A DNA stretch of 29,301 nucleotides from IMG/VR virus record IMGVR_UViG_3300020196_000175, positions 1-29,301 of that record. One strand, 5' to 3'. Source of the DNA: a virus. Of this stretch, positions 6,371 through 28,525 are shown one piece after another. The notes beneath the pieces are model-generated. The model saw only the letters and a list, made by a program, of their open reading frames with translations. It ran no database searches and had not been told where the DNA came from. The translations under genes and the position numbers were made by a program. Every line of letters begins with the position of its first letter. Position 1 is the stretch's first letter.

Positions 6371-6480
6371 GTGTGTTCTCTCTTTGTTTTAAGGTATCGA
6401 ATAGTGTTATTTGTGTAAATCAAGCAAAAAACCAAAAAGTGTGTTTGAGTTGTGTTTTTAGTTCTGACATTTTAAACCTT
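6371..6480 (-). other. 110 bp intergenic gap, the largest in the window, with a 16-codon mini-ORF
   Basis: This gap separates the collar fibre from its truncated paralogue. Read on the minus strand it holds an ATG at 6469 preceded by GAAAGGTTTAAA and encoding MSELKTQLKHTFWFFA before a TGA at 6421-6419, then an AT-rich stretch containing CAAATAA at 6413-6407 about 35-45 bases before the next start. The mini-ORF could be the stub of a lost gene or a leader peptide, and the AT-rich box could be a weak late promoter. I see no stable hairpin followed by a T run, so I do not call a terminator. Confidence 0.35.
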
Positions 6481-8898: not shown

Positions 8899-8909
8899 GT
8901 GTGATTCCT

Positions 8910-11900: not shown

Positions 11901-12254
11901 AGCAGTGTCCCCAAGAACAAGGTTGTAGTCGTCAATAGTTACAATATTTGCGTTTACTGTGAATGTTGGAGCATTAAATGTAACTGCACCATTAAATGTT
12001 ACACCAGAACTAAACACAACAGGAGATATGAACGAAACTCCCTTTGTAATATTGTCCTGTAATTCAAACGCAGCAGTGCCACCACCAGAAACATTAGCAG
12101 AAATGCTTGACGAGGAAATGCCGTCATAAATCTTTAACTTGTTCAGTTTGTATACAGATAGATTAGTAATGTCCCTCCACGTATTAAAGGTGTCACCAAG
12201 ATCTATTTCTGGTATGCTAAAAAGATTGCTATCTGGTCCTGTGTCTACTGGCAT
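8910..12254 (-). CDS. Long tail fibre with shared beta modules and DVNGT repeats
   Basis: A 1114-residue protein. Residues 1-40 (IPEIDLGDTFNTWRDITNLS, then VYKLNKLKIYDG) resemble the attachment ends of fibres from T4-like phages of aquatic hosts. Residues about 103-150 (IVTIDDYNLVLGDT, GGGLQI, SWLWN) are a shaft element that I also associate with such fibres. Two copies of a beta module follow (about 261-381 and 405-565), each with AEVVGIV or AEVAGIV, a GxVYxLx core and a KPML/KAVF-ATS segment. The module matches one in the collar fibre. Two GIG..GxxLDVNGT repeats lie late in the protein. The last 110 residues (from VVPLHAVHG) look like a compact beta domain and may be the distal tip. The start at 12254 sits 2 bases after the upstream stop with a weak GTGAG site, so it is probably translationally coupled. 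Receptor binding is inferred. Confidence 0.83.
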   Translation of the reverse strand: MPVDTGPDSNLFSIPEIDLGDTFNTWRDITNLSVYKLNKLKIYDGISSSSISANVSGGGTAAFELQDNITKGVSFISPVVFSSGVTFNGAVTFNAPTFTVNANIVTIDDYNLVLGDTAAASDQNISQAGGGGLQINRGSGKTASWLWNPVNIHGTTGLWLPDGNIGFTSGGAVVPYNGTTLGVHGTGILLDGGSTTEHGLLVSVSSAGGGNTSNREINFSRYSPAGATLFMQVLNGSTYTNTSGLSAGQQPFVRIPNGVNKKIVKQDHNFVVGNPVSMNSGGQYFLATADTSTNAEVVGIVSHVLSASEFEITFIGEIFGIDLTTNQDGGSLTTGAVYYLSPYHSGKVTATQPTQAGVVHKAVFIATSATSAIVYPWTGGILSEPIVLSSSAQTSVRINQLNQFKLGDIVRFKPAGSTTLTYGAGPGATSATYANGIFVRAQANSTSEAEVAGIVILREEIADTGVYRAFNLLMDGFFEFPGGVCAINGGQAGGLNAGTVYFLNINCAGTTGSFEKPSAPCYNNGHPTVAGQVRKPMLYATSSTTGYLFSYRGDVTGLPGLCANVSLSDLLIQDLGSCGGAADLNFGVKTGTGIAGGVRVMTFDGTTVGNVRIGPSSFNASSSGAGAALSVLGPILAGDGEGTNGAVIIGSRYNGPYPSTLNVFGGKYSTGNSYLSTGLRGITLIGGGYQSSTNQNLCRAAIEVGQKDIGGNRPALMFLGHSAGATGTAIGTAVQMTEYFSVAGFPSGQGARVTSGEFAAGYTNSAYPLHVSRNASGNPGIVINFAQNQYPYGVGLGSVHGNYGGDTDKGYSTTYLAAHKGYDQAAFALGFQDEANVTTGAGFTPLLMGFKHTSRIGIGITAPGASLDVNGTMRVLGGSSVNGAANTGTLLVSNATNSRQIQFGINDTSQVGWIEGWVLGYGGLTLAIQPTGGYLGIGTTGPTAVLDVNGTLRVGNFGGTTNVMAKLNNSVPTANTPSVGCVVPLHAVHGAYNTIPLPAGTWFVYLVGTENASGTDEDSTVVMAKVWTVTSSNFLRFKPSFAITNTNAGIAYSSSTSSAVDGSGAFTAIPLADSYAAGSATFSTVFGAGTHKGLAHSEGNGAIEYINGFAIRIA
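9403..9458 (-). repeat. Dispersed fibre repeat, copy 3 (GIGTTGPTAVLDVNGT)
   Basis: It encodes LGIGTTGPTAVLDVNGTLRV in the long fibre. It keeps the gtgccgttcacatc flank of the other copies, but the middle has diverged. It lies 237 bases from copy 4 within the same gene. Confidence 0.65.
9640..9695 (-). repeat. Dispersed fibre repeat, copy 4 (GIGITAPGASLDVNGT)
   Basis: It encodes IGIGITAPGASLDVNGTMRV in the long fibre. It is closer in DNA to the copy in the collar fibre at 7475-7530 than to copy 3 in its own gene, as expected if segments have moved between the two fibre genes. Confidence 0.75.
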
Positions 12255-12256
12255 GG

Positions 12257-12439
12257 TTACTCACTTTTTTGTTGATTAGAGATGCTGAATTTTATTTCTT
12301 GTAGTTCTTTCTTCAGTTTATTTATCTCGTTTTGTAAAGACTCTATAGTTTCTCTATCCTTATTTTTATCAATATACTCCTGCATCTTGCCGTGATCGGC
12401 AAGAACTGCTATACCATTACTGTTTCTTGTGTAATTCAT
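12257..12439 (-). CDS. Small coiled-coil protein, 60 residues
   Basis: It begins MNYTRNSNGIAVLADHGKMQ, and residues about 20-56 form a charged amphipathic helix with heptad spacing (IESLQNEINKLKKELQEIKF), predicting a coiled coil. Its ATG overlaps the stop of the DUF4815-type gene as ATGA (12439-12436), and its stop is 2 bases before the long-fibre ATG, so it is tightly coupled to both. Small proteins with a variable head and a helical tail of this type occur in structural operons of T4-like cyanophages, as I recall. It could be a fibre-assembly chaperone or a small virion coiled coil. The function is not established by the sequence, but overlap on both sides and the clean heptads make it a real gene. 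Confidence 0.75.
   Translation of the reverse strand: MNYTRNSNGIAVLADHGKMQEYIDKNKDRETIESLQNEINKLKKELQEIKFSISNQQKSE
12317..12326 (-). promoter_or_regulatory. Possible late promoter, GATAAATAAA, upstream of the long fibre
   Basis: On the minus strand GATAAATAAA lies within the small coiled-coil gene, about 63 bases before the long-fibre start. It matches ATAAATA of the T4-type late box. The spacing to the start is similar to that of the CTAAATA box ahead of the tailspike (about 75 bases). It lies in a Lys/Asn-rich coding stretch, where such sequences arise easily. Confidence 0.28.
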
Positions 12440-15400
12440 GGCCTAAAGAAACTAACCGCTCTAATGTTTCGTGCAGACGGAGTTTTATCGTAGATAGAAT
12501 TGGGAGAAGAAGTCATTCTTAATTTGATCTGATACGATTGAAAAACTGTGTTTGTAGGAAGAGTAGAGGAACGAAACAGTGCTTCACGAAAATCCAAATC
12601 TGATGTTGCAGAAAATTGCGGAGTAGTGGACGAACGGGTAAGAGAAATCCACGGTTTATCAAAAATATCGGTTTCTCCGTTCTCACTGTACCTATACCAC
12701 AACGATATGGCAGAGCCTACTGGTGTACATTCGTCCACAAACACTGAAACTCCATTTGAAGCAATAGCATCAGGCAACTCTACTACACGAGACACGTACT
12801 CTGAAACGGGAGCACTAGGTGTTGTATACATCTTTACTGCAACTCCACCCAAAGACTGTAAATCTAAAACAGGAGAAACCGAATCGTTTGCTGTTGCTAG
12901 TGTAAAATTTGCATCTGGATTAGTTCCGATCAAATCAGAAACATAAATTTCATCTCCAGATTCGTATGTGTAGTTTCCAATTTTTCTGACAAGAGAACAT
13001 CCACTAGGAACCACTTCGTTTACTCCAACACGAATAATTTGTGAATTTAAACAACCATTAACTCCCGTAAAGTTTATTGTTCCGGATGACACAAATTGAC
13101 AGGTAGATAAAGTAAACATAATATCTGTTGTTGGTTCCGATACAGAAGAGCCCATTCCTTGAGGCAAGAAAAGAGTTCCAATCAACTGCGAGTTGCCTGC
13201 ACGACCAAAACTAGAGTCTCCAACAAGCAGAGAATTTACTCCTGTATCTGATGCGTACAATTCGTAATCGTCACTGTTTGCCATTATACACAGGGCATAC
13301 TCTCCTGGCTCAAGATAGACGGGACTACTAAACTCCATCACGGTTGGTACTGGATACTCTGTATTAGTGTTTATGTTTTCGGGAAGTGTAACCACTGTGC
13401 TAAAAGGAATCACAACCGATGGTGACGGATATCCTGAAACAGTAGGACGAATTTGAATCACCACAGGAAGTTTAGCATCTTTTTTAGAGAAATACAGAGA
13501 AATATTTTTTAAGAATAGTCCCTGTGAATTAGTCTTTGAGTCTACAAAGAAAGTTTGTGCCAATGGATCTGCCCATTGATCGTTTTGAACACTGTCAATA
13601 TCACGAGTAAAGGGATTTTTGGAAATAGTTTCACTGCTTGGAGTTTGTCTCCTTAATTCAGCAGGACGAACAGAGTGTGCACCAGACGAACTCTGCTCAA
13701 CCAAGCCTGCACAGTGTATAACTGCATCAGCAGACATTTCACAATTTGCAAGTTCTGAATTATCAGAAATTCTTACTGTTCGTGAACCAATAGGATGTAC
13801 ACCAGGAGGAATTGAGAAAGTAACAGTTGCAGATCCATTGGCATCTGTATTAACTCCTCCCGCAGCAGTATTATTATCAAAGTACAAATATAGTCCATTT
13901 GAATTTGGTTTTAGTCCATGTACTTTTGCTGTAATTGAATCAAAACTCATATACGGCACAACACTTCTGTCAACAATTTTGCTGCCGATTTTGTTTTTAA
14001 TTCTGCTTTTCAATTGTCTTGCTCGGACGTAATTACTAGTTTTTTCGTTTAGTGGCTTTGCGTTTCTACTAGAAAAAGAACGAACATTACCAGAATTAAT
14101 ATTTGGAATTTGAGAATCGGAAGACACACGAGGACTTTCAAGAACTCGTTTTTGAATGTCGTCTTGATCCATGTCAACATCGTCTATACCGTACCAAATA
14201 CTCTGCCAATCATTCCATTGCGTACCAAATCCACGAGCATCATTAGTGTTTGAAGACAACCAATTATCATTTTCCATAAGCGAGTTTGTTTTGACAATTG
14301 GACGGTATGATTTATCAAATTTGGGAATAATTGTCTTCGACAAAGACATGAATCCCAACCAACTCACATTGTTTGTGGGGTTGATTTTTATTGTTTTTGT
14401 GTACGACTTGTTTTCAATATACGGTCTATTTGAATATTTCAAAGTAACTATTCCGTCAGGAGAAATAACCGTGTCAACAGTTGATCCAGCTGCAGGATTA
14501 GTCAAAGAAGGAAACACAATATCAGTTGTCGAGAAGAAAGGACGTAGTTCTCCACGCTCGAAATCAATAGAACAATTGTGTTCATTTGAAGACACATCAG
14601 AAACAGAGTGTCCATAAAATTCATCAACAAAAATAGATGTTTTTAAAGGTTCAATATCGGTTGGTGATGTTTTTAAAGAACGAGTTTCAATTTCGTTTTC
14701 TGAAATTGATAATTTGGTAAAAACTTCAACATCCTGAACTCGTTTTTGAATTTTTCCAATATCTGACATTGTAAATCGCTTGGTGTCCACTGTAGTAATG
14801 ACAACATCTTCAGGATTGTGTGTAAACGCAGGAACAGTAAGTGCAGATAAAACAAGCACATTTGCTGGATCAGAAGGAGGAGTAGGGGATATGTCTGGAA
14901 TTCCGGATTGTAAAAAGAAATCAGGAGAACCGTCTTCTGAATCTATACGCAAACACAACTTGTCTATACGTGGCAAATAGTGTTCGTACTGTATTTTGGT
15001 GTCTCCAACAACGCCAAACTCAGATCGTCCATACGGTTTAATCATTGGAGTAGATGATGTAAGACCGCTATGACGAAAATCCAAACAGTTTGCTAGAGAC
15101 ACAGTTTTTCCTGTTCGTGAATTGGTGTACAACGGAATTTTTTCGTAATTTATATTTGTATACGAATGCTGTCCAATAAAAGGAGCGTAAGCAAGTCCTG
15201 AATGGGTAAAATACGAGTAGGTAATTTTAATTGTAACCGCAGGACCAGAACTGTACCTGAGTTGATTTGCAACAGAAGGTTTTATGTACAGACGACCTCT
15301 ATTATATGTAGCTTCTCTTTGACCGTCATCTAATTCAAAATCACCAATATAAGTAATTGATGTAGTAGTATTATTGACAATCTCCAAAACAGAAAAAATA

Positions 15401-17391
15401 TCAATGTCTGGAAGTTCAAAGAATTTTCTACCTGTAGAGTCTACGGAATACGAATTAGACAAGAAAGTAATAGTTTTGTTGGTAAGTGATTTAGTTCGAT
15501 ATGTGGACTGATCAGAAATAGTTGGTGTGTACACCACAGGCGCAATAACCTTAAAATTACCTGATGTAAATCCTGCTGCGGCATTAAAAATCTGAATTTG
15601 AAACTCGTTTTCATCTCCAATAAGAGTAACACCAGAAGTAGGAAGCGTATACGCCACGCCAGTAGGTGCAACAATAGAGATTTCAGATGTGTCTGACGAA
15701 TTATTACTGGTTCCGTAATTAAACAGATTAAAAGTGGATGCAGAAGAAGAAGACATACTGTCGCTAAAGTGAGTTTTATTAACAGTATAAGTAGTGGTAT
15801 TGGTGGTCTGATTATGGGTTGCCGTAACAAGGTTGGTGGACCCACCAATCATTTTTCCAACAACATTACAATACAAAAATTTGGAAACAGCGTATGCAGG
15901 TTTAACTTCAAACACCAAAGACTGCTTGTCATTTAACACAACATTTCCAAATGAGGTTCCAGAATTTGGAATCACTCTGCCTGCGGCAACAGCAGAAGTA
16001 GATGGAGGAAGAGCAGTAAGGTAAATCATTGCAGAACTACCGCTGCTAACAGAACCACTTATACCATGAAGATACATTCTGTAACTGTTACTTGTAACGC
16101 CAGCACTCGCGTTTGGCAACATACCGTGGACATATCCTAATGCCACCTGCTGATTCGAGCTATTATGGAATCTAACAAATGCAAAACCAGAACCAATACC
16201 TACAAGATTTGTTGAAAAAATAGAACCAAACAAATCTACTTTTACATCAATGTAATTCCCAACAGTGTAATCGTATGTTAAATACGATGGTGAGCCTTCA
16301 AGTTTAGTAGTTTGTGCCCGTGGAAGATTTACAGAAACAGGATACTGATTTTCAATTTCACGACCAAGCACATACGCTTTACCCTGACCAACAACAATTT
16401 TAAAATTTGAATCGTTTGGACCCAATTCTGATTCTTTCATGGTAATGTCAAACGGATTCACAGTATACGAACCAGACTCATCAAAAGTTCTTCGTGCAAG
16501 TGTTTTTTCAATTTCTGCATACGAAATACGGTCAATCTTTCGAATAATTTTTCCCTTATCAAAACGCAACAATTCAACAAAATCAGTGGGGGTGTCTTCT
16601 ACAGCGTATTGTGTTAAAGTAGGGGTAATTGTGTAACGATCTGCTCCTGCTGCATTGTAGTTGTACGACCCAATAGACGGATCACGCAATGTGCTGTCGT
16701 CTTTTTCTGTAACATTGTCCTTATTAATGTAAAATCCAATCTTCTGTGTGAGATCAGTGTAGTTGTTCATCTCAAGATTGCGGTGTGTTGATTCGTTTTT
16801 ATACGGAGCAAACACCTGTTTTTCAGTACGCACAAAGAAACCATCAATATAAAAAATTCCATCGGTAACAGTTACAAGTTTACAACGACCACGAGTAGAA
16901 TACGGCAAGTTGCTACTAACACTTAAATCACTAATAATGGTGTCGTCTTTTTGAAAATTAAATGTACCTGAATATTGGTATCCAGAAATAAAGTCAATAA
17001 TTAGAATAAGTTTTCCGTCACGGGACACATCAGGTGGAATAAAATGAACAATTTTTGCTTCGGTAGTGTCGTTCGCAACTGCTGATTTCAAGTATCCACC
17101 AACCAAACTACTGTAGTTTGTTACTCCGCCCAATGGGGAGTTCACACCAGAGTCAATCATAATATAATTGGAATTTCTTACAGAAATAGCACCACCAAGA
17201 ACGCGAGAACCGTCCTTAAACAAATGATCACCAAGTTTTGAAATTTGATTTTGTAAAAGGGTTTGTGCTTGGGTTAATTCACGAGCTTGTAAAGCGTAAC
17301 CAGGCTTGAACAATACCCGTAAAAATCCCTTTGATAAATTAAAATCGTCATAATACGGACTAATATTGAATGTGTTTGGATCGTATGACAT
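12436..17391 (-). CDS. Large DUF4815-type baseplate wedge or fibre protein
   Basis: A 1651-residue protein. The N-terminus (MSYDPNTFNISPYYDDFN, then KGFLRVLFKPGYALQARELT, then QNQISKLGDHLFKDG) is the hallmark of DUF4815 proteins found in structural blocks of T4-like phages. Residues about 1145-1215 form an Ig-like strand set (ITAKVHGLKPNSNGLYLYFD and a DANGSATVTFSIPPG segment). From about 1275 comes a conserved beta domain: DPLAQTFFVD, LFLKNISLYFSKKD, IQIRPTVSGYPSPSVV and YLEPGEYALCI. The position after gp8 and before the fibres corresponds to T4 gp9-gp10, the wedge pin and fibre-attachment site, so a gp10-like role is inferred rather than read from homology. The ATG at 17391 has an AAAAGGA site that overlaps the gp8 stop, 9 bases away. 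It is among the largest genes in the window, with no break in frame. Confidence 0.85.
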   Translation of the reverse strand: MSYDPNTFNISPYYDDFNLSKGFLRVLFKPGYALQARELTQAQTLLQNQISKLGDHLFKDGSRVLGGAISVRNSNYIMIDSGVNSPLGGVTNYSSLVGGYLKSAVANDTTEAKIVHFIPPDVSRDGKLILIIDFISGYQYSGTFNFQKDDTIISDLSVSSNLPYSTRGRCKLVTVTDGIFYIDGFFVRTEKQVFAPYKNESTHRNLEMNNYTDLTQKIGFYINKDNVTEKDDSTLRDPSIGSYNYNAAGADRYTITPTLTQYAVEDTPTDFVELLRFDKGKIIRKIDRISYAEIEKTLARRTFDESGSYTVNPFDITMKESELGPNDSNFKIVVGQGKAYVLGREIENQYPVSVNLPRAQTTKLEGSPSYLTYDYTVGNYIDVKVDLFGSIFSTNLVGIGSGFAFVRFHNSSNQQVALGYVHGMLPNASAGVTSNSYRMYLHGISGSVSSGSSAMIYLTALPPSTSAVAAGRVIPNSGTSFGNVVLNDKQSLVFEVKPAYAVSKFLYCNVVGKMIGGSTNLVTATHNQTTNTTTYTVNKTHFSDSMSSSSASTFNLFNYGTSNNSSDTSEISIVAPTGVAYTLPTSGVTLIGDENEFQIQIFNAAAGFTSGNFKVIAPVVYTPTISDQSTYRTKSLTNKTITFLSNSYSVDSTGRKFFELPDIDIFSVLEIVNNTTTSITYIGDFELDDGQREATYNRGRLYIKPSVANQLRYSSGPAVTIKITYSYFTHSGLAYAPFIGQHSYTNINYEKIPLYTNSRTGKTVSLANCLDFRHSGLTSSTPMIKPYGRSEFGVVGDTKIQYEHYLPRIDKLCLRIDSEDGSPDFFLQSGIPDISPTPPSDPANVLVLSALTVPAFTHNPEDVVITTVDTKRFTMSDIGKIQKRVQDVEVFTKLSISENEIETRSLKTSPTDIEPLKTSIFVDEFYGHSVSDVSSNEHNCSIDFERGELRPFFSTTDIVFPSLTNPAAGSTVDTVISPDGIVTLKYSNRPYIENKSYTKTIKINPTNNVSWLGFMSLSKTIIPKFDKSYRPIVKTNSLMENDNWLSSNTNDARGFGTQWNDWQSIWYGIDDVDMDQDDIQKRVLESPRVSSDSQIPNINSGNVRSFSSRNAKPLNEKTSNYVRARQLKSRIKNKIGSKIVDRSVVPYMSFDSITAKVHGLKPNSNGLYLYFDNNTAAGGVNTDANGSATVTFSIPPGVHPIGSRTVRISDNSELANCEMSADAVIHCAGLVEQSSSGAHSVRPAELRRQTPSSETISKNPFTRDIDSVQNDQWADPLAQTFFVDSKTNSQGLFLKNISLYFSKKDAKLPVVIQIRPTVSGYPSPSVVIPFSTVVTLPENINTNTEYPVPTVMEFSSPVYLEPGEYALCIMANSDDYELYASDTGVNSLLVGDSSFGRAGNSQLIGTLFLPQGMGSSVSEPTTDIMFTLSTCQFVSSGTINFTGVNGCLNSQIIRVGVNEVVPSGCSLVRKIGNYTYESGDEIYVSDLIGTNPDANFTLATANDSVSPVLDLQSLGGVAVKMYTTPSAPVSEYVSRVVELPDAIASNGVSVFVDECTPVGSAISLWYRYSENGETDIFDKPWISLTRSSTTPQFSATSDLDFREALFRSSTLPTNTVFQSYQIKLRMTSSPNSIYDKTPSARNIRAVSFFRP

Positions 17392-17400: not shown

Positions 17401-19782
17401 TTAGAAACCTAGTCTGATACGGAATTCCTCTTCTTGACCTAAAGTTCTCTGTATGGGTCTTACATTTTCTATGTATATGATATCACCAGAAGTTGGTTTA
17501 ATCTGTGGTTTAAGTACAGAAGAAACCACATAAGCTCCAAGTGTGGTACCAGTTAAACCATGAGACTCCACACTTCGAAAACTTCCTAATAAATTTGTGA
17601 GATACAAATGCCCCTTTGCAGGATTTAAAAAATTCCAATGGTACACTGTGCCACGAGCGTAGTTTGAAACTCCACTTGTAGAACCTTGGACAACTATGTC
17701 TCCGTTCATAAAAGAGTTTCTGGTTAACTGACTTGAAGTAATATCAATACCGCCTGTGGCTGGATTTACACTACTTGTTATTGTCAGTTGCTGCAATCCT
17801 GTATACAGAGAGTCTGAAACATTATCAAAATATGTTTCACCAACATCAACAATTCTATATTGAGTGTTTGTAGCAGTATTTGTACTTCCTGATTGCAAAA
17901 CCACTTCTGCAAGTCCGTTAGACTGTCTAGTAATAATAATTGATTCTCCGTACTCTCTATCGACACTAGTGATTGCTGCCTGGACTTGAGATTGAACTCC
18001 TTCTAAAGTTGCTCCTGTAATATTTGAAACAAAGTTGCTGTTTGTTTCTAATTCCACAGATATATTATTTGACCCCACAGCAACAACCGTACCCCTGGTA
18101 ACAACAGAATATCCGTATCCACTGCTTCCAGTTCCACTAGGAATAGTTTGCTTTACAGTTTCTCCCAATGTAAAAGTAAAATTAGGAGGGGTACTAACAA
18201 AATTAATATTATAACGATTGATTCGATCCTTTGCTGTAATAAAAGATCGTGGAGAAGCACCGGTAGTTTTTAATGTTACTAGTTTATTACTCGCCCCTAA
18301 ATCAGAAACAGATCTAACCGACAAAACTTTTGCTGAAGAGTTGGTTTCCATTCCTATTATATTTCCGTACTTGTCATTAGTAGTAAAATGGGAATTAGAG
18401 TACGCACTACTCGGAACAATTAGTGAAATGTCTCGGTTCGAATAAATTTCAGAACCAGCAATACGATTAGTTCCGTCAGTAAGAACAGGATTTTTTATGA
18501 TTCCAAACTGTCTGTACGAACCCGAACCAACAAAGCTTTCAGAGGACTTTTCATCAATATCAATAATCAGTATGACATCTTTTACATTTAACTCTCTTAA
18601 AATATTGCTTCCGTGACCGCCTTTGGGAGACAACACCGCACGAAGAACTGGATGTGCAGTTGTAGAAACTTTGGGACTGTTCACAAAAACTTCTACGTTG
18701 GAGTACCCGTAACCAGGATTAACAATTGAAACTTCTTTTATGGTTTTATTGCTGTTCATTTTTGCTAAACAGTACGCACCCGCACCATTACCAATAATTC
18801 GTACAAATGGAACAATCTCTACCGATGAATAATTAGTTGCTGATGTGCTTGGAGTAATCACAAAATTTACGGCATCATTTTTTACCGTAAAAGTTATATT
18901 ATTACCATTATCCACAACACCCACAATTACTCCGTAGTTTCCTACTTGTAGAGAATTTACTGTGCTGCTTTCTACGCGAATAGCGTATCCAACATAGTCT
19001 TGCAGTAGGAATCCAGCACTACCCTGACGAAGTCTAGTGAGAGACTCTGAATTTGTAATCTTTACTGTTTTAGTTTGCTGATCTATTTGGGTAAAACCAC
19101 CCACATCAATAAGTGTAGATGTGCTAATAGCGGATGTGCGAATCACTGTATTAGTGTACACACCTGTGCTTGCTCCTGCTGTATTAGTTAAAACTATTCT
19201 GCTTAAACTCCCGTCTACTGCCTGTGTCTGAACATTATACTGATTCGAGTTTTCTATTTGGCTAGCACTACGGGCGTAATCAATAGGCATATAGTCTGTT
19301 AATTCATACGGTATATCTGATTCCACAAGTGTTGCCAAATACTTCCATGTGTAACCGTCTGACAATGAAAACGTATCGGTGTTTCCGATACCGTTAGGCT
19401 TCACAGTAGACACTGCACCACCACTATTACCAATACACTTATAGATGTTTTGATCATCTGTAACTACATAAAACACTTTTGGATAGTTTTCATTAAATAA
19501 CTCTACTGTATCATCGTATTGATCGTAAGATACACCCGATGTCCACTCGTATCGAGGAAGAGCAAACACAACATCTTTTGGAGTAATTTTTTTATACCCT
19601 ATAATGTTGTTCATTACACTGTATTCTTCCGCAACAGTGTCTGTATACGCTGGTGGGGAATTGTCATTGCTCCATGTGGTTCCTTTAGCAACAAACAAAA
19701 AATAAGTGTTATCATTCCTTTCAAGATCGGTAAGGAAACTTTCTGCGTATGATCTTTGAAGAGATGCTTTTATGAGTGTCAT
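17401..19782 (-). CDS. 8: Baseplate wedge protein gp8, enlarged
   Basis: The first 180 residues carry the gp8 pattern of T4-like phages: NDNTYFLFVAKGTTWSNDN and SPPAYTD, then DVVFALPRYEWTSGVSYDQY, then KVFYVVTDDQNIYKCIGNSG and DGYTWKYLATLVES with DYMPIDYA. gp8 is a wedge subunit bound to gp7, gp10 and gp6 in the baseplate rim. At 793 residues it is more than twice T4 gp8 (334). The extra part is beta-rich, with elements such as VNPGYGYSNVEVFVNSPKV near residue 355, as in gp8 of many aquatic T4-like phages. The C-terminus (ENVRPIQRTLGQEEEFRIRL) is charged and looks conserved in style. The ATG at 19782 has an AAAGGA site 7 bases upstream and follows the orphan LamG gene by 10 bases. Confidence 0.87.
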   Translation of the reverse strand: MTLIKASLQRSYAESFLTDLERNDNTYFLFVAKGTTWSNDNSPPAYTDTVAEEYSVMNNIIGYKKITPKDVVFALPRYEWTSGVSYDQYDDTVELFNENYPKVFYVVTDDQNIYKCIGNSGGAVSTVKPNGIGNTDTFSLSDGYTWKYLATLVESDIPYELTDYMPIDYARSASQIENSNQYNVQTQAVDGSLSRIVLTNTAGASTGVYTNTVIRTSAISTSTLIDVGGFTQIDQQTKTVKITNSESLTRLRQGSAGFLLQDYVGYAIRVESSTVNSLQVGNYGVIVGVVDNGNNITFTVKNDAVNFVITPSTSATNYSSVEIVPFVRIIGNGAGAYCLAKMNSNKTIKEVSIVNPGYGYSNVEVFVNSPKVSTTAHPVLRAVLSPKGGHGSNILRELNVKDVILIIDIDEKSSESFVGSGSYRQFGIIKNPVLTDGTNRIAGSEIYSNRDISLIVPSSAYSNSHFTTNDKYGNIIGMETNSSAKVLSVRSVSDLGASNKLVTLKTTGASPRSFITAKDRINRYNINFVSTPPNFTFTLGETVKQTIPSGTGSSGYGYSVVTRGTVVAVGSNNISVELETNSNFVSNITGATLEGVQSQVQAAITSVDREYGESIIITRQSNGLAEVVLQSGSTNTATNTQYRIVDVGETYFDNVSDSLYTGLQQLTITSSVNPATGGIDITSSQLTRNSFMNGDIVVQGSTSGVSNYARGTVYHWNFLNPAKGHLYLTNLLGSFRSVESHGLTGTTLGAYVVSSVLKPQIKPTSGDIIYIENVRPIQRTLGQEEEFRIRLGF

Positions 19783-19792: not shown

Positions 19793-20338
19793 TTACAATC
19801 CTATGTTAGAGTATGTATCGCCTGCTAATACGCTTCCGTTTGATAATCTGGTGCCAGCAGACTTGTACAAATGTTTAGGCATTTCAAAAAACTCTGAAAG
19901 GGTTATTCCAGAAAATTCTGCACCATACGGAAGAGTTTTCAGGTTCTTTTTGTTGGGATGAGACTCAATTAACCAGTACGCAGCAGTTCTTCCGTGAGAA
20001 CTTACACTGTTTCTAACACTTTTCATGTCTTCTGGTAATTTTTCTTCAAGTCCATATTTTAAAGACAGGTATTTGTACACCTCCTCGCGTTCTGAAACAG
20101 ACAGTTTTCTGTTAAACGCTATTACTTCATGCAGTGTTCCTGAAAAAGAATGTGGTGGATTTGTTGTGGAATTGGTTAGATTCGTTATCCAATTGCTGCT
20201 ACCTACGATATTTGTAGAGTTTGCAGTTTCTCGTACATACGATCCTAAACGAGACAGAGTAACAGGTGCTGAATTACTTATCTCTTCACCAGCAATAAAA
20301 TTGCCTTCATCATCCGAATCTATTAGTTCGTCTGGCAT
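19793..20338 (-). CDS. Orphan LamG-edge protein, 181 residues
   Basis: Residues about 66-100 read FSGTLHEVIAFNRKLSVSER, then EEVYKYLSLKYGLEEKLP. This is the C-terminal edge of a LamG/concanavalin-like domain with its trailing helix. The same edge occurs in the giant protein just upstream (FDGEIAEVVLYQGDVGESDR, then KIEGYLAHKYGLAYKLP). The preceding 65 residues are too few to complete a LamG fold, and the 80 residues after it have no domain I recognise. The gene has a strong GAGGAG site 6 bases before the ATG and lies 18 bases after the giant gene, so it is probably expressed. It may be a recombination remnant of an older adhesin tail, or a small subunit that completes a fold on the partner. 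The sequence alone does not decide. Confidence 0.7.
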   Translation of the reverse strand: MPDELIDSDDEGNFIAGEEISNSAPVTLSRLGSYVRETANSTNIVGSSNWITNLTNSTTNPPHSFSGTLHEVIAFNRKLSVSEREEVYKYLSLKYGLEEKLPEDMKSVRNSVSSHGRTAAYWLIESHPNKKNLKTLPYGAEFSGITLSEFFEMPKHLYKSAGTRLSNGSVLAGDTYSNIGL

Positions 20339-20356
20339 ATACTCTCCTCTGGTGTG

Positions 20357-23300
20357 TTACAAACCAAATCTGCTCCGCAGAGCATTAAAGTTTTGTTGGA
20401 CTTCTGCCTGATTCAAAGCGCGTGAGTACACACGAGTGTTTGAAACCGAGCCTCGCCAAAAAGTATTTGTTCCATTGTTATTAAATCTTTTACCGCTTGC
20501 ACGATTCGCTATGTAGAATTCAACATTTCCGTTATTACTGCTACCTAACTGTTCTTTTCCACTTATTCCAATGGTTGAAGTGTCTGGTGAAATAAACACG
20601 GAAGTATCATTCACAGTGCCTGTAGTGGTGATCTTTACTCCATTTTTGTAAACTGTGTACCGAGTAGTTGTTCCATCGTATTCAGAAACACACACCACAT
20701 GGTGCCAAGTATTTGCCACGAAAAATCCTAAGTTTGATTTAATTAATATCTGCGTGTTGTTCGGATGATACACGCTCCACAAAAATGCAGTGTAATAGTT
20801 ACCGAAATATGGAAGACTACCACCTCCCATGTACATATCAGTCTCGTAAAGGACGGACGGTTTTACCCACGCCTCCCATGTAATGTTTCTGTTGGTGCCA
20901 AACACCAGTGGAGTATTTGTAGAGATTACACCTGGACCGCCGGTAAACACCACAGACCCGCCTCCGTCTGGTGTGTAACCCACTTCATTTATGACTTCCA
21001 TGTTCGCACCACTACTACTTAAATCGTTCACGGTGTTAATGCTGCTGCTTGTCAGAGCTTCAATTGAGAGTTCATTGCCGTCAACCACCTCAATTCTGGG
21101 ACGAGCAAACTGTACTTCTTCTCCCCTGTTGTTACATTGATACAAGAACGTACGAATACTGCTTCTTGCGTTTGTGGAAGTCCAAACTTTGTCGCCATAC
21201 TGATTTCCTGTTAAAAATCCTGTGTAGGTTGTTCCTGTGTTGGGCAGATAGTACCCGCTGTTGGAGTGATTGGGGCCTGTTCCGCTTCCTATAGGGTGAA
21301 CGTGCCCAACAACCAGTACCCACTTGTTTTCCTTTCCACTCCACGCCAGTTGGGATGGATGCTGAAAATCAAAATATGAATTGTTGTCCGACTCTCCATC
21401 ACTTCGCCTTATAATAGGAAGACCACCACTAGTCGCAGTGGTACCAGGACCAAAATATACTGCTCCATTATTCAACACCGCTCGGTTTATCCATACAGAG
21501 TACCTGTACATTTTTGTGCGGTCTATTGGCACTTCAGGAGAAACAAAACCAGCATTACTCATGTAATTCCCGTGAAGATGAGCTTTGCCGTGCCACACTG
21601 TTTCCGGTTTTCCCGAAGGTCCAGTCTTGTATCCAATTTCGTTTGAGTTGGGAGTTCCTAGACTGGCACCTCCAATATAATCACGAATCGAATAACCATT
21701 AAGATAACTGTTGTGTGACCGTATGGTTGTGCCTGGAATATCAACATCAGTACCCGCAGGATACGGTTGCAAGAACACACGACCTATACGGTATGCTGTA
21801 TTCGGAACTAAACCAGTAAGCCCTATGAGATTGTTGGGGCAGATAGGGGATGCTACTGTTCTTGTTCGTGTAACACGATACCATCCACCACCCAAAGGTT
21901 CAACTGTACTTGAGTTAGCAGGAGGATATTTACCGTCTGCAAAAGTAGGCCCACTCACCGGATCGTATAGGTACACACCAATAGAATTTGGAATGGCTAC
22001 ACCGTCTTCCCTACGAATGGTGAACGAAGCAGTCCAAGTGGTGGACTTGGTGGTAGTGTCTACCCACGCGTTTGCAGCTGCGCCGCCTCCAGTATACCTG
22101 TTCAAATAAACATTGTACTGCGCCCCTGTCGTGAACCTGTGTACTGGATCCCCACCCAATTCCTTATCTGCGGCATCACCTAAAGTTACACCATCGGCAA
22201 TGAATCCTGCTCCATCTCCTTGCCACATCGTTGGAGCAATAGGGCCAATAATGTTTACGGGTGTTTCACGGAACGGATACGGATCAAGCAGGTTTGCAGA
22301 TTTTGCACTGGCAAACCCACCAACCGAAGCACTCTTACCTGGATCAAAATTAAACATTAAACCACTTGCCATAGAGTACTGTTCTCCTGATGGAGCACCA
22401 GTTGAAATTATTCTACGACCAGTAATTAGAGAGCGATTAAGTGAAGCGTCCCCGTTCAGATACGTTTGTATTTGATTGTTACTGTCTCGTGTCCACTCAC
22501 CAATTACCAGTCCCATACACGCTCCAGACACATGGGGATCGTATGAAATAGTTGTTTTTTGTTCCTCGGGTCGGCCTCCGTCAGGACGAAATCCCACAAG
22601 ACCTGTTCTCTTAGGATACAATAGGGTTCCTAGTGGTGTAACAGAATAAAACCCTGATGTTTGATTCGCGGCAATGCGATCAACACTGTTGTAAGACCGA
22701 TTAAACAGAACTGAATCGTCTTGTATTGGTTCGGTTGCTGAAAACGATGGGGACAGCGAATCAAGTCTAGAAAACAACCCCATTCCATTGTTGGGAGAAT
22801 CACTGGTGCTTTTCATCACCATGAACACGTCCATTTCATCTGAAAAGTTTAAAGGTTTCTTTAAATACAGGTGTTGTGCAGTAAGAATGCTTGCGGCACT
22901 ACTGCCTGGTCCTGTGGTGTATCCTAGTCCCATAAGACCACCAAGAGTTTTTCCTGCGTATGTGGTTCGTGCAGAGTACAATACACCACCATTAAACGAC
23001 ACCCCTGTGACTCCACCGTATGCTGCGGTTTGCAGAGTGGGACGCAGTTTGTCCACGGTGACTCCTGAGTACACAACAGTAGTCAAACCAGCTGTAGTCG
23101 TTATGCCTGCTGCTGATGGTCTAACAGGGGTATCACCGTTCCACATTCCCAAAACGGTAAGCGAGTGTCCAATTCGAGTACTATTTCCATCCCCGTAGAA
23201 ACTAGAGTCCATGTAGTAAGTTTTCCCGTACCCACTGTAGACCAGTCTCTTTTGCACACCGTTTATACGGTAGATTATATCTGGTTCTTTGTACTCAATC

Positions 23301-26221
23301 TCAAATACACTGGTGTCAAACGCAGAATAATTGGTTCCCGCAGAAGGCGTTATGTCCGACTTACTCACTCCGCTTTCATAAGCAATAATACGCCTACCCC
23401 AAGTCAGATTTGTACCAGAACTGTGTGGACCGAAAGAGTAAAAAGCGTAGTCAATACTTTGATAACCTGCGTTTGTATTCGGATCAGTGTTTAAACCAAC
23501 CATCATCAGTCGTCCAGTAGTAAATCCGCCACACACCCCGTTAAACGCAAACTGTAGTCTTGTTATTGGAGTTGAGACTGCTGAGTCTTGACAAACCTGT
23601 TTACTCCACTCGCCAACAGCAGGACCAGTGTAAGTGGTGGTAAGAGTGTTGTTCCACCGATCCCATGTGGGCGGCAGTGCGTCATTGCCTGAAGGCGATG
23701 CGTCTCGCCACACATCCACGCTTGCACCGTTCACTACAGACCCACACACCCCAATGTTTTCTGGTTTTAACCACAACACCATACCAGAAATATTGCCAAT
23801 ATTAGGATTTGTTTCCCTTTTTGCTCGCCAAGCAGTAATTCCACCAAGAGGAGAACCTGTGGGATTGTGTGCAGTCTTGCCCAACTCGTTTGCTACTGTG
23901 TAGGTGTATCCGCTGTACTTGTTAATAAAAAGGGATCCATTTGGAGCGGTTGTGCCGTCTGATCCCACAGCAGAGGTTGAACCAATATACGGATTGTAAC
24001 CTAGTGGATAAAAGTCTCCTGTTGCTCCGTACCACTTGCCATCAGAGAAAGATGCACCAGGCGGTGATGTTTTGTGTGGGTGATTGCTTGGTAATTTGTA
24101 CGCCAAACCGTATTTGTGCGCCAAGTATCCTTCAATCTTCTGTCGGTCGGATTCTCCCACGTCTCCCTGATACAGAACAACTTCGGCAATCTCTCCGTCA
24201 AACTGTCGCGTGATACTTGTAGAAGCGCATCCAATTCCAAGACTCAAACCAGGCGATGAAAAAATTCCAGCACTTTGAGGAGAACCAGCCAACTCAAACG
24301 TTCCGAGACACACGCCATTTAGGAAAAGAGAAAGCGGACCAGGTGATGTTCCATTTTTTCGGTATGTGTTACACAGCAGTTTCCACTCACCTGTGCCACC
24401 AATACCGGCAACCACAAAAGGTCGGTTTGTGCTACTCGCATAATTGTAACACAACGCTTTTAGACTAGGGTCGTTTGGGCCTGTTTTTCCAAGAAGGATT
24501 CCGTGCCATCCACCAAAATCTCCAACAAGCACCTGCTGTGATTCAGAGTAAATACTTCCAATATCTCCAATAGTGCCCACCGAATTAGGTTTACACACAA
24601 TAAAATAAGAACGGTCAGAGGTCAAACCCAGAGCACCAACAGTTAGGCCACTCATAAAACCAGTAGATCGCAGGTTGGTATTAGAACCGGATTCAGCAAA
24701 TGGACGGATTTTTACCGATGGATGCGTATTTACTGCATTAGGCACATACTGTGGTGTAAGCCAAATATCGGTAATTGCAGTAGTAGCAACCTCAAATGTG
24801 ACTCCGTTGTGTAGACTGTTCCAGTACCGAATTCCCCATCCACTATTCCTAGAAAGAACTGCTTCCACACCAACCGTTACACCGTTGTTGGTAGGGCCAG
24901 AAATGTTGTACGCACTTAGCCACACCTGAAGGGTTGCTCCTCTAACCTGATTGGGCAAGAAGTAACCAGAACGGAGATTATTAAATGATCTTGGAGAATA
25001 CGGAGTATACTGACCAATAATCGGTTTTTGTGATACTGTAGACTGAGTGCTTGCAGATATTGAATTTTCAAGGGCAGTATTTACCAGCACAGACCCAAAC
25101 ATTTTCGTACCAGCAGGATGAACAATCTGCTTTAATGTTTCAAAGTAGGTATCAAAAGGCACTCTAGAGCGTAACGAATACGAATACGGTTGGTAATAGT
25201 CTCTGTCTTGGATACGTTTGTTTGAAGAAATTTTTCCACTGTTTCCTAAAAAATAACCAGGATACTCTGTGATTGCACTTGACACAGCAAACACTAGTGA
25301 ATTCTTTACCCCTTTTTGATTAAACACATCAAGAACAACACTTTGAGTGTAGTTTAAACCAGAGTTAAGAATAGACAATTTCTTGATGCCACCAGAAAGA
25401 CTGATCTGTTCAACCTTTGCAGAGTATCCTACACCTGAAGAATCAATCACAACAGCAGAGTCTCCAACGCGATAGTCTGTTCCAGGCAGTTCAATAAAAA
25501 ACCGTCCAAGTACAGAGTATGTGGTTTCTTGGACTGTATCAGATTTATTGCTGTACACCACTGTTTTGTTAGGAGAAAAATCTCCAACAATATTTTTTAA
25601 GAAAACTTCTGTTATATCGTATCCATAAAATTTGTACTGTATAACGTTATCAATAAAAGCCTGTCCAACAAGATTATCGCCATCGTATTGACGGATTTCT
25701 CCGCCAATATAGGAGAACAAAGCAGACCCATTAGTACTTGTTGTCTTTATTGTTTTGGGTTCAATCCACACCCCACCAGAAACTTTTAGTATGTCTTTTT
25801 CTGGATAATAGATTTCAACATCACTGTCGTACAAAATTTTGAATAAAAAACGATACGCACTTTCTGTTCCTTTGTTACCGTAGAAGTCTCGTATTTTCTT
25901 TAGTAAAATTGTTTTATTGGGTTTATTTCCTGAAGTATTAACAGCAAATTTTTCAGGAAAAGAAACAAGATAGGTGTTCTTAAAGTGTTCGTAAAACTCC
26001 TGTGCATTGCTGTCTATGTCGGAAACAGTCTGTAAATTTCCAATTACGTATGAAGGTTTTCCAATACTATCCAACCACTCATAGTACGCCTTAACAAGCA
26101 ACACAAGTTTTCTGTAATCGGTTCTAATAAACAAAGGAAACTGCTCCTCAATAAAAGGAGACAGAATTTTTTCGAGAGACTCCTCAGATGTATTCAGAAT
26201 AATATTCTTTATTTCTTTCAT
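20357..26221 (-). CDS. Giant fusion: gp7-position baseplate protein with LamG/CBM-like adhesin modules
   Basis: A 1954-residue protein. Residues 1-385 form a baseplate-type head: FPLFIRTDYRKLVLLVKAYY, then KKIRDFYGNKGTESAYRFLF, then YYPEKDILKVSGGVW, ending QIVHPAGTKMFGSVLV. This pattern is widespread in T4-like phages of aquatic bacteria, between gp6 and gp8 where T4 has gp7. The rest is lectin-like: a LamG-type domain about 420-720 ending in the IEGYLAHKYGL helix; a second beginning GMVLWLKPENIG near 813; a carbohydrate-binding-module-like stretch about 1330-1720 (GGWYRVTRTRTV, MYRYSVWINRAVL, NKWVLVVGHVHP); and a LamG_3-type domain about 1750-1954 (NTWHHVVCVSEYDG, ending VYSRALNQAEVQQNFNALRS). 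The last segment is typical of marine phage adhesins. The ATG at 26221 lies 10 bases after the gp6 stop and has a poor Shine-Dalgarno, so coupling is likely. Calling the head gp7 is based on position. Confidence 0.85.
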   Translation of the reverse strand: MKEIKNIILNTSEESLEKILSPFIEEQFPLFIRTDYRKLVLLVKAYYEWLDSIGKPSYVIGNLQTVSDIDSNAQEFYEHFKNTYLVSFPEKFAVNTSGNKPNKTILLKKIRDFYGNKGTESAYRFLFKILYDSDVEIYYPEKDILKVSGGVWIEPKTIKTTSTNGSALFSYIGGEIRQYDGDNLVGQAFIDNVIQYKFYGYDITEVFLKNIVGDFSPNKTVVYSNKSDTVQETTYSVLGRFFIELPGTDYRVGDSAVVIDSSGVGYSAKVEQISLSGGIKKLSILNSGLNYTQSVVLDVFNQKGVKNSLVFAVSSAITEYPGYFLGNSGKISSNKRIQDRDYYQPYSYSLRSRVPFDTYFETLKQIVHPAGTKMFGSVLVNTALENSISASTQSTVSQKPIIGQYTPYSPRSFNNLRSGYFLPNQVRGATLQVWLSAYNISGPTNNGVTVGVEAVLSRNSGWGIRYWNSLHNGVTFEVATTAITDIWLTPQYVPNAVNTHPSVKIRPFAESGSNTNLRSTGFMSGLTVGALGLTSDRSYFIVCKPNSVGTIGDIGSIYSESQQVLVGDFGGWHGILLGKTGPNDPSLKALCYNYASSTNRPFVVAGIGGTGEWKLLCNTYRKNGTSPGPLSLFLNGVCLGTFELAGSPQSAGIFSSPGLSLGIGCASTSITRQFDGEIAEVVLYQGDVGESDRQKIEGYLAHKYGLAYKLPSNHPHKTSPPGASFSDGKWYGATGDFYPLGYNPYIGSTSAVGSDGTTAPNGSLFINKYSGYTYTVANELGKTAHNPTGSPLGGITAWRAKRETNPNIGNISGMVLWLKPENIGVCGSVVNGASVDVWRDASPSGNDALPPTWDRWNNTLTTTYTGPAVGEWSKQVCQDSAVSTPITRLQFAFNGVCGGFTTGRLMMVGLNTDPNTNAGYQSIDYAFYSFGPHSSGTNLTWGRRIIAYESGVSKSDITPSAGTNYSAFDTSVFEIEYKEPDIIYRINGVQKRLVYSGYGKTYYMDSSFYGDGNSTRIGHSLTVLGMWNGDTPVRPSAAGITTTAGLTTVVYSGVTVDKLRPTLQTAAYGGVTGVSFNGGVLYSARTTYAGKTLGGLMGLGYTTGPGSSAASILTAQHLYLKKPLNFSDEMDVFMVMKSTSDSPNNGMGLFSRLDSLSPSFSATEPIQDDSVLFNRSYNSVDRIAANQTSGFYSVTPLGTLLYPKRTGLVGFRPDGGRPEEQKTTISYDPHVSGACMGLVIGEWTRDSNNQIQTYLNGDASLNRSLITGRRIISTGAPSGEQYSMASGLMFNFDPGKSASVGGFASAKSANLLDPYPFRETPVNIIGPIAPTMWQGDGAGFIADGVTLGDAADKELGGDPVHRFTTGAQYNVYLNRYTGGGAAANAWVDTTTKSTTWTASFTIRREDGVAIPNSIGVYLYDPVSGPTFADGKYPPANSSTVEPLGGGWYRVTRTRTVASPICPNNLIGLTGLVPNTAYRIGRVFLQPYPAGTDVDIPGTTIRSHNSYLNGYSIRDYIGGASLGTPNSNEIGYKTGPSGKPETVWHGKAHLHGNYMSNAGFVSPEVPIDRTKMYRYSVWINRAVLNNGAVYFGPGTTATSGGLPIIRRSDGESDNNSYFDFQHPSQLAWSGKENKWVLVVGHVHPIGSGTGPNHSNSGYYLPNTGTTYTGFLTGNQYGDKVWTSTNARSSIRTFLYQCNNRGEEVQFARPRIEVVDGNELSIEALTSSSINTVNDLSSSGANMEVINEVGYTPDGGGSVVFTGGPGVISTNTPLVFGTNRNITWEAWVKPSVLYETDMYMGGGSLPYFGNYYTAFLWSVYHPNNTQILIKSNLGFFVANTWHHVVCVSEYDGTTTRYTVYKNGVKITTTGTVNDTSVFISPDTSTIGISGKEQLGSSNNGNVEFYIANRASGKRFNNNGTNTFWRGSVSNTRVYSRALNQAEVQQNFNALRSRFGL

Positions 26222-26231: not shown

Positions 26232-28112
26232 TCAATAAGTGCTATTACCCATACTTCCCATACTTCCCATACTATTTGTCTGGGTGGGTGTAGATGTTAC
26301 ACCTTCTATAAATTTATTTTTTCTACTGTCCTGATTAACAATACTAACCTTTACGGAGTCAGAGTATCCACGATTAATCCTTAATATATTGTTTTCATAA
26401 ACAAACAAATCAGAATTGAGTGGTTTGGCAGTAACACTAAACAGAAATGTTCCCACTGGATTAAAGTTTGTATTGAATCGGACCACGCCTGTATCATAGT
26501 CAACCAATCCAATATTATCGTAAATTATTTTCTTATTACCTTTGGAATCAATAGTAATTAGATTAATAGTGCCTAAACCGTTATCAATAGCAATTACCCC
26601 TGAATGCAGAACGCCAAACTTGTCTTTATGTTTTATTTCACTTGTTGTAATTGAGGCAGTTTCAATCATCTGTCCGTGCAATGGATTTTTAAAATCTACT
26701 ATAATGCCTTTTGATGTACCAATCGCAGAAAGATCAATAGTTTTACGCATTTTTACAGTTGTTTGATTGCTAATAATACTAGAATTAAGTGAATTGATTC
26801 CTTGAATAATTTTTGACAGATAAAGATTTGATCCAAAAGATTCCATAAAATTCGTAGAATACGTGAATATGTACGCAAGAACAAGTGCTTTTATAGTTCC
26901 AATATTTGTTTCTGTTTTGTTTGCATCAATTGTAATAATAGAATCAAACACAAGATCAATGTAATCAGGATCTACTATTTCGGGAACAACGGTAAGAACA
27001 GATCGGTTTGCTCTAAGTTTTTTGGTTAAAGCAATTTTGTCCTGACTTGTAAGAGCAAAACCAGAGTTTGGTTTTATAGCAACAAACACTTTTCCGTACT
27101 GTGGAGGAGTAACTGTTTCTCCTCCGTAAACATAAACAGAAGAAGAGTTTGGGTACTCTTTCATTACAGCAGAGGTGTAATCTGATTCTGTTACTGCTCG
27201 ATTTTGAGACTGATAGAATCTTGGTGCAAGAAATTTAATTTTAGAAATAGATTCTTCAAGACATCCACCACTAGAAGGACTCTTTAATTTGATTTGACTC
27301 AAACCAGGAAAAGATGTAGTAAATGCGCTAATTCCATTTCCCTGATCCCCACTAGTCTCTAAATATTCAACAATAACAATGTTGCCTGTTTCTGGCTGCT
27401 TACCTAAAAAATTGTCTCCAAAAAACAATTCGTAAATACCGGTTTCTCGCTCCTGCAAGAAAAAAACTTTTGAGTTGGGGGTTAAGTCTATGTACGACTC
27501 TGTATACGACCAAACGTCTTCTATTCCTGTATTATCTGTCGCAGAAGTCTTTACACGAACTTGTATTGTACTGGTGTCTATCTTGTCATTTGGAATAACA
27601 AGATAAGATCCTGTCTTTTTTGTGGAATCGTACACGTAACTCATTCTACGAAGAGTGCCTTCATAAATTTCAATATTGTTAAAAGACTGAGTAGCAGAAT
27701 TTGCGTACACGGTATCAAGCAAAATAAAAGAGTACTCTGTTCCAAGGGGATCAATTCCAGTAAATTGTAAACCACGAGAAAGATATGTGCTTTCCGATGC
27801 ACCAGCAGCACAAACACCTAGAACAGCCTTTGCTGCCCGTCTTGATGTGGGAACGTACCCCAATGTTTTTGCGTGAGATACTACTGATGGTCGTAACAAT
27901 GCACTGTCAAGAAACATTTCATTGGCAATCATATTTGCGTAAAACGCCTGATAGTGGGTATTGTATGCAAGCACATCTAAAACAGTATTGATAACAGACC
28001 CATCAAAATTATAGTCCTTTAAAGTTTCCTGTGACTGTAAAAATGCTTTGAGTGATGACTTTGCGTCTTCAAAGTCTAGTCCTACAATATTAAAGTTGTT
28101 TTTATTGGGCAT
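26232..28112 (-). CDS. 6: Baseplate wedge protein gp6
   Basis: A 626-residue protein, close to T4 gp6 (660). The N-terminal signature is clear: FEDAKSSLKAFLQSQETLKD, then VINTVLDVLAYNTHYQAFYA, then NEMFLDSALLRPSVVSHAKT and LGYVPTSRRAAKA. gp6 is the central wedge subunit whose dimers form the continuous inner ring of the baseplate, and its family is related to the J/GpJ-type baseplate proteins of other myophages. The middle holds the conserved KVFVAIKPNSGFALT segment. The C-terminus ends in an odd MGS tandem (SMGSMGSMGNSTY) encoded by 9 bp repeats. The ATG at 28112 overlaps the gp25 stop as TAATG, with AAAGGA about 8 bases upstream. Confidence 0.93.
   Translation of the reverse strand: MPNKNNFNIVGLDFEDAKSSLKAFLQSQETLKDYNFDGSVINTVLDVLAYNTHYQAFYANMIANEMFLDSALLRPSVVSHAKTLGYVPTSRRAAKAVLGVCAAGASESTYLSRGLQFTGIDPLGTEYSFILLDTVYANSATQSFNNIEIYEGTLRRMSYVYDSTKKTGSYLVIPNDKIDTSTIQVRVKTSATDNTGIEDVWSYTESYIDLTPNSKVFFLQERETGIYELFFGDNFLGKQPETGNIVIVEYLETSGDQGNGISAFTTSFPGLSQIKLKSPSSGGCLEESISKIKFLAPRFYQSQNRAVTESDYTSAVMKEYPNSSSVYVYGGETVTPPQYGKVFVAIKPNSGFALTSQDKIALTKKLRANRSVLTVVPEIVDPDYIDLVFDSIITIDANKTETNIGTIKALVLAYIFTYSTNFMESFGSNLYLSKIIQGINSLNSSIISNQTTVKMRKTIDLSAIGTSKGIIVDFKNPLHGQMIETASITTSEIKHKDKFGVLHSGVIAIDNGLGTINLITIDSKGNKKIIYDNIGLVDYDTGVVRFNTNFNPVGTFLFSVTAKPLNSDLFVYENNILRINRGYSDSVKVSIVNQDSRKNKFIEGVTSTPTQTNSMGSMGSMGNSTY
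26248..26274 (-). repeat. 9 bp tandem repeat at the gp6 3' end
   Basis: Three direct copies of cccatactt (the last with one change) lie in frame near the gp6 stop and encode SMGSMGSMG. Slippage here would add or remove three residues without breaking the frame. Confidence 0.85.
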
Positions 28113-28525
28113 TATCGAATCCTTTCTAATACTACTGATATTCGGTCGTTTTTACCAATAGCAATAATAGAGTATTCAACATTAACCACATACCCATTTT
28201 CATCAGGATTAGCAATTACATCAACAATAATATTGGAAACACGAGGTTCGTGATTTTTTATAGTCCGAAAAACTCTGTCGTGTATTTCAAGAGTTGTTAT
28301 TGCATCTATTGGTTCAAACAGCATTGGTCGAAGAGAACCACCTATGGTTGGTTGAAAAAGGCGTTCACCAAAAGCAGTAGACAGCAAATTTTTAAGAGAA
28401 AAACGAATAGCAGAATCGTTTTGCAACAACAGTAAATCTCCTGTCTTTGGATTCCGTGTTAAATACGGATCTAAATCAGTGAATACTGGTTTATTACTTT
28501 TTCCTCCTACTGCTTTAAGTGTCAT
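28112..28525 (-). CDS. 25: Baseplate wedge protein gp25
   Basis: A 137-residue protein, against 132 in T4. Features of the family are present: an N-terminal DLDPYLTRNPKTGDLLLLQN, a helix SAIRFSLKNLLSTAFGERLF, a PTIGGSLRPMLFEP segment and the conserved NHEPRV (EPR) motif near residue 100, followed by paired strands. gp25 is the sheath-initiator-like core of the wedge, related to lysozyme-like TssE/gpW family proteins of contractile systems, and sits with gp6 and gp53 around the hub. The ATG at 28525 has an AGGGA site and lies 10 bases after the stop of the GAF-like gene; its stop overlaps the gp6 start. Confidence 0.94.
   Translation of the reverse strand: MTLKAVGGKSNKPVFTDLDPYLTRNPKTGDLLLLQNDSAIRFSLKNLLSTAFGERLFQPTIGGSLRPMLFEPIDAITTLEIHDRVFRTIKNHEPRVSNIIVDVIANPDENGYVVNVEYSIIAIGKNDRISVVLERIR

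Follow-up and report, generated by a model that had tools for sequence, protein, structure and literature searches.

The ORF at the gp7 position of this virus probably encodes a baseplate wedge subunit that has been turned into a host-contact arm. Sequence comparison, structure models and analogy with T4 point to nested insertions of lectin modules, capture of a distal cassette and severance of the original C-terminus, with six putative glycan-binding arms on each baseplate.

Gene order and relatives

The window, which is the whole stretch of DNA analysed, is a 29.3-kb virus contig with its structural genes on the minus strand. An ATG ORF of 1954 aa runs uninterrupted from 26221 to 20357; the sequence-only reading had delimited this ORF without stating a strand, and it is real, at full length, on the minus strand. 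The features of the locus are as follows.

28112..28525, minus strand: gp25 homologue, baseplate wedge (Pfam/PHROG)
26232..28112, minus strand: gp6 homologue, baseplate wedge, upstream neighbour (Pfam/PHROG)
20357..26221, minus strand: gp7-position ORF (1954 codons, ATG start)
25034..26221, minus strand: gp7-like wedge head, residues 1-396 of that ORF (profile, fold, gene order)
20344..20348, minus strand: AGGAG, Shine-Dalgarno-type site, 5 nt before the ATG of the 181-aa ORF (sequence)
19793..20338, minus strand: 181-aa ORF, severed C-terminus of gp7 (fused to the head protein in 24 relatives)
17401..19782, minus strand: gp8 homologue, baseplate wedge, downstream neighbour (Pfam/PHROG)
12436..17391, minus strand: DUF4815 protein at the "VrlC" position, a gene separate from gp7 (Pfam DUF4815 and gene order)

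The order gp25-gp6-head-(181-aa ORF)-gp8-VrlC is kept in about 50 or more genomes. DUF4815 is absent from the 1954-aa protein, and its Pfam match lies in the separate ORF at 17391-12436. Across the relatives the gp7-position ORF ranges in length from about 520 to 3274 aa, and the lectin-free relatives (~590 aa) have the same neighbours as in the window. One architecture common to all relatives had been raised as a possibility; the forms found run from lectin-free ones of ~590 aa to one of 3274 aa, and the arrangement in the window is neither unique nor universal. Four more long minus-strand ORFs lie at 410-12254 (1114, 805, 1215 and 651 aa), with weak family matches or none. One of them has tail-collar/fibre similarity, and they are probably the tail-fibre set.

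The head is a gp7 homologue

The identification of residues 1-396 as a gp7 homologue is supported by synteny, profile and fold. The head has two conserved blocks, A (residues 20-292) and B (residues 319-382, with the motif DYYQ..SY...HPAG..MFG), which are present in all intact relatives. It matches the PHROG "baseplate wedge subunit" with an E-value of 1.7e-58. A profile of 74 heads finds the gp7 of a Klebsiella phage (E 7.1e-11) and of T4 (E 2.4e-8) in the PDB, blocks A and B being colinear in both matches, and hhalign of the head against T4 gp7 alone gives a probability of 96.9 and an E-value of 1.5e-10 over T4 residues 642-923. The correspondence is to the C-terminal core of T4 gp7 only (about 642-907). 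A multi-sequence profile is needed, since the single head sequence, searched with phmmer, reaches T4 and Klebsiella phage gp7 via a 30-35-residue stretch only. Pfam PF23786 scores 24 bits in the window, below its 27-bit cut-off, and is above the cut-off in most of the relatives scanned. In T4-type wedges, gp7 joins two copies of gp6 in a heterotrimer.

The AlphaFold2 model of the head is of moderate confidence (mean pLDDT 72). Three PDB fold matches have E<=0.001, and all three are gp7 chains. When superposed on gp7 as a whole the model fits poorly (TM about 0.2), so that the fold match is local and rests on local and sequence similarity. The sequence-only reading had taken residues 1-385 for a conserved baseplate protein at the gp7 position, and had suggested a profile search of these residues against T4 gp7; its boundary is correct within about 10 residues, and the profile and the head model both lead to gp7.

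The head profile also matches residues 43-162 of the T4 tail sheath protein gp18, via head residues of about 185-302 (E 1e-7 to 1e-6); the two proteins may have a beta domain in common, or the match may reflect a similar repeat pattern. In relatives L013-L037, L039 and L041 the head's beta domain (HMM positions about 116-269) recurs once or twice between the two head blocks, and this repetition is another route of growth for their gp7 proteins.

Modules of the arm

About 1550 residues follow the head, and there is no N-terminal extension before it. This extension is separate from the downstream tail fibres, as had been proposed, the tail-fibre genes being other ORFs. It can be divided as follows.

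24908..25072, minus strand: linker, first half, residues 384-438, "YTPY..LR" (linker HMM positions 1-56, E 1.3e-7)
24044..24934, minus strand: module C1, about residues 430-726, ConA/LamG-like, within the linker (homology of its C-terminal half)
23843..24043, minus strand: linker, second half, residues 727-793 (linker HMM positions 41-107, E 5.8e-27)
23069..23842, minus strand: module C2, about residues 794-1051, lectin-like beta sandwich (AlphaFold2 and relatives)
22370..23068, minus strand: lectin module C3, N-terminal half, about residues 1052-1284 (C-terminal half in the 181-aa ORF)
20360..22369, minus strand: putative captured distal cassette, about residues 1285-1954, with its own stop codon (HMM, Pfam, AlphaFold2, Foldseek); its parts are a LamG start strand, B1 (1326-1510), B2 (1511-1730) and the LamG tip L4 (1731-1954)

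The tip L4 is the sole part of the arm that is significant by Pfam sequence profile (Laminin_G_3, PF13385, E 3.6e-13, above cut-off). The same family is matched by the arms of 33 of 37 relatives, and when the 37 are pooled the tip resembles solved LamG and sialidase lectin-type domains. C1, C2, C3, B1 and B2 fall below the Pfam thresholds. C2, B1 and B2 are lectin-like by predicted fold only, and C1 and C3 by homology to the 181-aa ORF family, the C-terminal half of C1 matching the lectin C-half of the 181-aa ORF with an E-value of 9e-13. A phmmer search of the whole arm against the PDB gave no match.

A structure prediction of the full protein had also been suggested; the AlphaFold2 model of the arm covers residues 755-1954. 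C2 (about 857-1051, pLDDT mostly 70-90) and the B1-B2-L4 cassette (from about 1285) fold as beta sandwiches, and the Foldseek matches of the model in the PDB comprise generic jelly rolls of lectin type, tandem CBM22 domains and laminin-G domains. The N-terminal half of C3 (1052-1284), which is half a lectin domain only, is unfolded in the model (pLDDT about 30), and this poor confidence may come from a shallow alignment and not from a missing partner. The earlier description of the region as a string of LamG/CBM modules was right as to their kind, with uneven support along the chain: residues 727-793 are linker, not lectin, and 1052-1284 are half a domain.

Clostridial toxin binding domains, in their lectin-like part, supply many of the top fold matches. 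At 9-16% identity these reflect a common shared fold and have no bearing on toxicity. In phage Pam2 (ON014754.1), a lectin-like protein (hit H98) annotated as "botulinum neurotoxin type A" matches as a module of LamG/ConA type, and the toxin name appears to be an erroneous annotation derived from the fold.

Insertion of modules between the head and the C-terminus

About 60 IMG/VR relatives have a head that is 49-72% identical to that of the window, always N-terminal, with differing subsets of modules behind it. C1 is missing from many of them, and in these a linker of ~107 residues follows directly after the head. In the window the HMM of this linker is broken into two matches, residues 384-438 and 727-793, that precisely flank C1, and it matches the lectin-free 592-627-aa proteins of L235, L237 and L233 unbroken (E 5e-11 to 2e-27), which places C1 within the linker. 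The lectin-free forms also have a motif near their C-terminus that makes up the end of the 181-aa ORF as well (E 1e-9 to 1e-12). Since these forms show both linker and motif, C2 and C3 lie between the two.

These comparisons indicate that the arm was built by stepwise insertion between the head and a conserved C-terminal motif. The lectin-free state is likely ancestral, and graded no higher than likely because the polarity rests on long-branch outgroups. A head followed by C-terminal adhesin modules, as first pictured, holds for the presence of a lectin-like extension; the modules are inserted and not simply C-terminal.

A split gene and a probable captured cassette

The 1954-aa ORF had been treated as the whole protein, which is incomplete: the remainder of C3 and the true C-terminus are encoded by the 181-aa ORF, outside 20357-26221. 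The finding is richer than first stated, as the protein continues in the next gene. In the 181-aa ORF, residues of about 10-98 are the C-terminal half of C3 and those of about 99-181 the conserved gp7 C-terminal motif. Head and motif belong to a single protein in 24 same-clade relatives as well as in the lectin-free L235, L237 and L300 (27 in the tree set), and the lectin-bearing fused relatives contain almost all of the 181-aa sequence. In the fused protein of L064, residues 1-1296 correspond by alignment to window residues 1-1271, and residues 1315-1469 to residues 26-181 of the ORF; the break falls midway through the C3 lectin fold.

In the split genomes, including the window, extra modules stand at the break, with a LamG tip (signature QNFN.LR.RFG) and then a stop. 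Nine free-standing phage ORFs of ~440 aa yield an HMM whose match to the window spans residues 1525-1954 and reaches the final one (E 7.6e-63); in L112 the HMM covers positions 9-438 of 438 (E 1e-71). The simplest reading of these matches is that a whole adhesin-like gene was captured with its stop codon, together with an extra CBM-like domain, B1, in the window. Position and homology of the cassette are apparent from the alignments, and we infer that it moved into gp7.

Short LamG ORFs (225-460 aa; pattern GLVL.LDA...QNFNA.RGRFGI) lie side by side in L172, L173, L180, L194 and L208, and the array in L194 stands upstream of gp25-gp6. Such arrays are a possible donor pool of arm cassettes.

On the head tree, a quick tree of one gene in which L062 and L138 are left unclassed, the two states need 8 changes, at least 4 of which are forced by strongly supported branches, so the exchange between them is recurrent. 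Shine-Dalgarno-like sites similar to that of the window precede the downstream ORF in 13 of 19 relatives. The 181-aa ORF of the window is in frame with the 1954-aa ORF, six codons separating stop from ATG (20338-20359). Among 22 split genomes, near-duplicates included, the downstream ORF is in frame in 13, which is more than one in three, and out of frame in nine. Programmed read-through of the stop into the 181-aa ORF was set aside as not needed, given these nine, several of which have a ribosome-binding site of their own, though it may occur.

Sequence variation along the protein

Identity to the nearest relative falls along the chain, from 78% (residues 1-150) to 70-75% in C1, about 50% in C2/C3 and 30-37% in the cassette (about 35% over 1321-1954). 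The near-identical strains L011 and L012, compared over the colinear stretch from gp25 on (21% "differences" upstream are a contig offset and were excluded), are the same throughout the 2208 bp of head and C1 and show 88 differences in 3732 bp of arm (2.4%, p 2e-18 relative to head and C1). The 181-aa ORF has no differences between these strains, gp6 has 0.11% and gp8 0.55%; VrlC also varies somewhat, as does gp8. Codon changes in the cassette are 21 nonsynonymous and 8 synonymous. Tips are also exchanged between lineages: relative to the window, L074 is 69% identical in the tip and 58% in the head, and L085 29% in the tip and 72% in the head.

The falling identity and the concentration of strain differences in the arm indirectly support its contact with the host. 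The excess variation could also come from recombination or relaxed constraint. A diversity-generating retroelement was rejected as its source for the pairs L010/L012 and L010/L011, where the changes are not confined to template adenines.

Proposed arm and alternative explanations

By homology and gene order, the head replaces the core of T4 gp7, in a predicted wedge with gp6 and gp25. As comparison with relatives that lack them shows, lectin/CBM domains were inserted into the short region behind the head, C1 in the linker and C2 and C3 ahead of the C-terminal motif. The cassette, most of which resembles a free-standing phage adhesin-like ORF, would have entered the C3 fold with its stop codon, and the displaced gp7 C-terminus would be translated separately from its own start site. 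The 181-aa protein would most likely supply the missing part of the C3 fold in trans and rejoin the wedge. Each wedge would carry a single arm, which by analogy with T4 would make six on a baseplate, and the arms would bind surface glycans as a second host-contact layer beside the downstream tail fibres. A bolder proposal, plausible but tentative, is that of a two-chain wedge protein, in which the halves of one lectin sandwich lie on different chains, gp7 and the product of the 181-aa ORF, and come together in trans. The junction would then be a branch point, with the captured adhesin free and the gp7 C-terminus docked, and a recurrent capture site for exchanged adhesin genes. Were this true, phages could change receptors without touching their tail fibres.

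The arm may instead be a structural decoration, with lectin folds that bind virion proteins (gp10/VrlC-type or fibres) and brace the baseplate, and do not bind the host. The extra domains of T4 gp7 make contacts with partners inside the baseplate, LamG-type folds bind proteins too, and the proximal modules are fairly conserved, at 70-75%. We consider this explanation unlikely, however, as the modules are dispensable, lectin-free relatives having the same neighbours, and as the most distal part evolves fastest, even within one population, and is exchanged between lineages (the L074 and L085 tips).

Cutting of the chain after synthesis, with wedge head and adhesin separate in the virion, appears improbable: the two-ORF break shows that the chain tolerates interruption at C3, but the head-arm junction is conserved and continuous in all intact same-clade relatives. 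It is more improbable still that the head is not gp7 and that some different wedge or fibre-attachment protein has come to lie between gp6 and gp8 by chance. Profile, profile-profile and fold searches all rank gp7 best, over the same residues and in order, and VrlC has a gene of its own in the window and in the relatives, even though the TM-score is low and papers on cyanophages and pelagiphages give gp7 as missing or VrlC-replaced (PMC7029224, PMC3037559). A gp7 subunit converted into a host-contact arm remains the preferred reading.

Comparison with known systems

The gp7 proteins of T4 (PDB 5IV5, 5HX2) and of Klebsiella phage KP1/Lilla1 (9F4A) have the homologous core and the same place between gp6 and gp8. 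T4 gp7 begins with ~640 residues that have no counterpart here and contains no lectin domain, whereas the protein of the window has ~1550 residues after the head and a split C-terminus. That T4 gp7 carries no adhesin, as the sequence-only reading held, agrees with this, since its extra residues are N-terminal and it is without such a part.

The giant gp7-position proteins of T4-like cyanophages (Syn1_094, 3274 aa; PHROG 4406/2885/701) have the same head blocks and gene order. They are very long and have adhesin-like inserts; unlike the window, they have a large insert between blocks A and B, where Syn1_094 (L008) has a YHYH domain at residues 713-839 (Pfam E 7e-25), and no LamG cassette was detected behind block B. 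Syn1_095 (176 aa), in the same position as the 181-aa ORF, had no homology to it that was found. In the literature gp7 is reported as missing outside the non-cyanophage T4 group or as replaced by VrlC (PMC7029224, PMC3037559). T4-like cyanophages and Melnitz-type phages (L008, L005, L013 and others) have the gp7 core between gp6 and gp8, and we argue that gp7 is present but unrecognised in such phages, VrlC being another gene. With the gp7 gene identified in T4-like aquatic phages, the wedge inventory of these abundant viruses would be consistent with that of T4, which is testable.

Vp4 Gp119 (Herelleviridae; PMC11406892) is a wedge protein that carries CBMs, as here, and its binding to host cells has been shown for Vp4. 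It is the third wedge protein (BW3, A511 gp105 type) and not gp7; it has two CBMs, and no split gene is described for it (PMC11406892). With this precedent, the general principle of a CBM-bearing wedge adhesin is already known. Evolved Dit proteins in siphophages of lactic acid bacteria (e.g. PMC10688798) likewise have sugar-binding domains inserted in a core baseplate protein, and differ from the gp7 of the window in tail type and carrier protein. A limited search of the literature found no description of gp7 as the carrier, of the nested insertions or of the split gene. Beside Gp119 and evolved Dit, the window would offer a conserved, load-bearing baseplate subunit as the carrier of modular, rapidly changing adhesins, and a gene-level route that leads from domain insertion, through uptake of an entire adhesin ORF, stop codon included, to a displaced C-terminus as a new gene.
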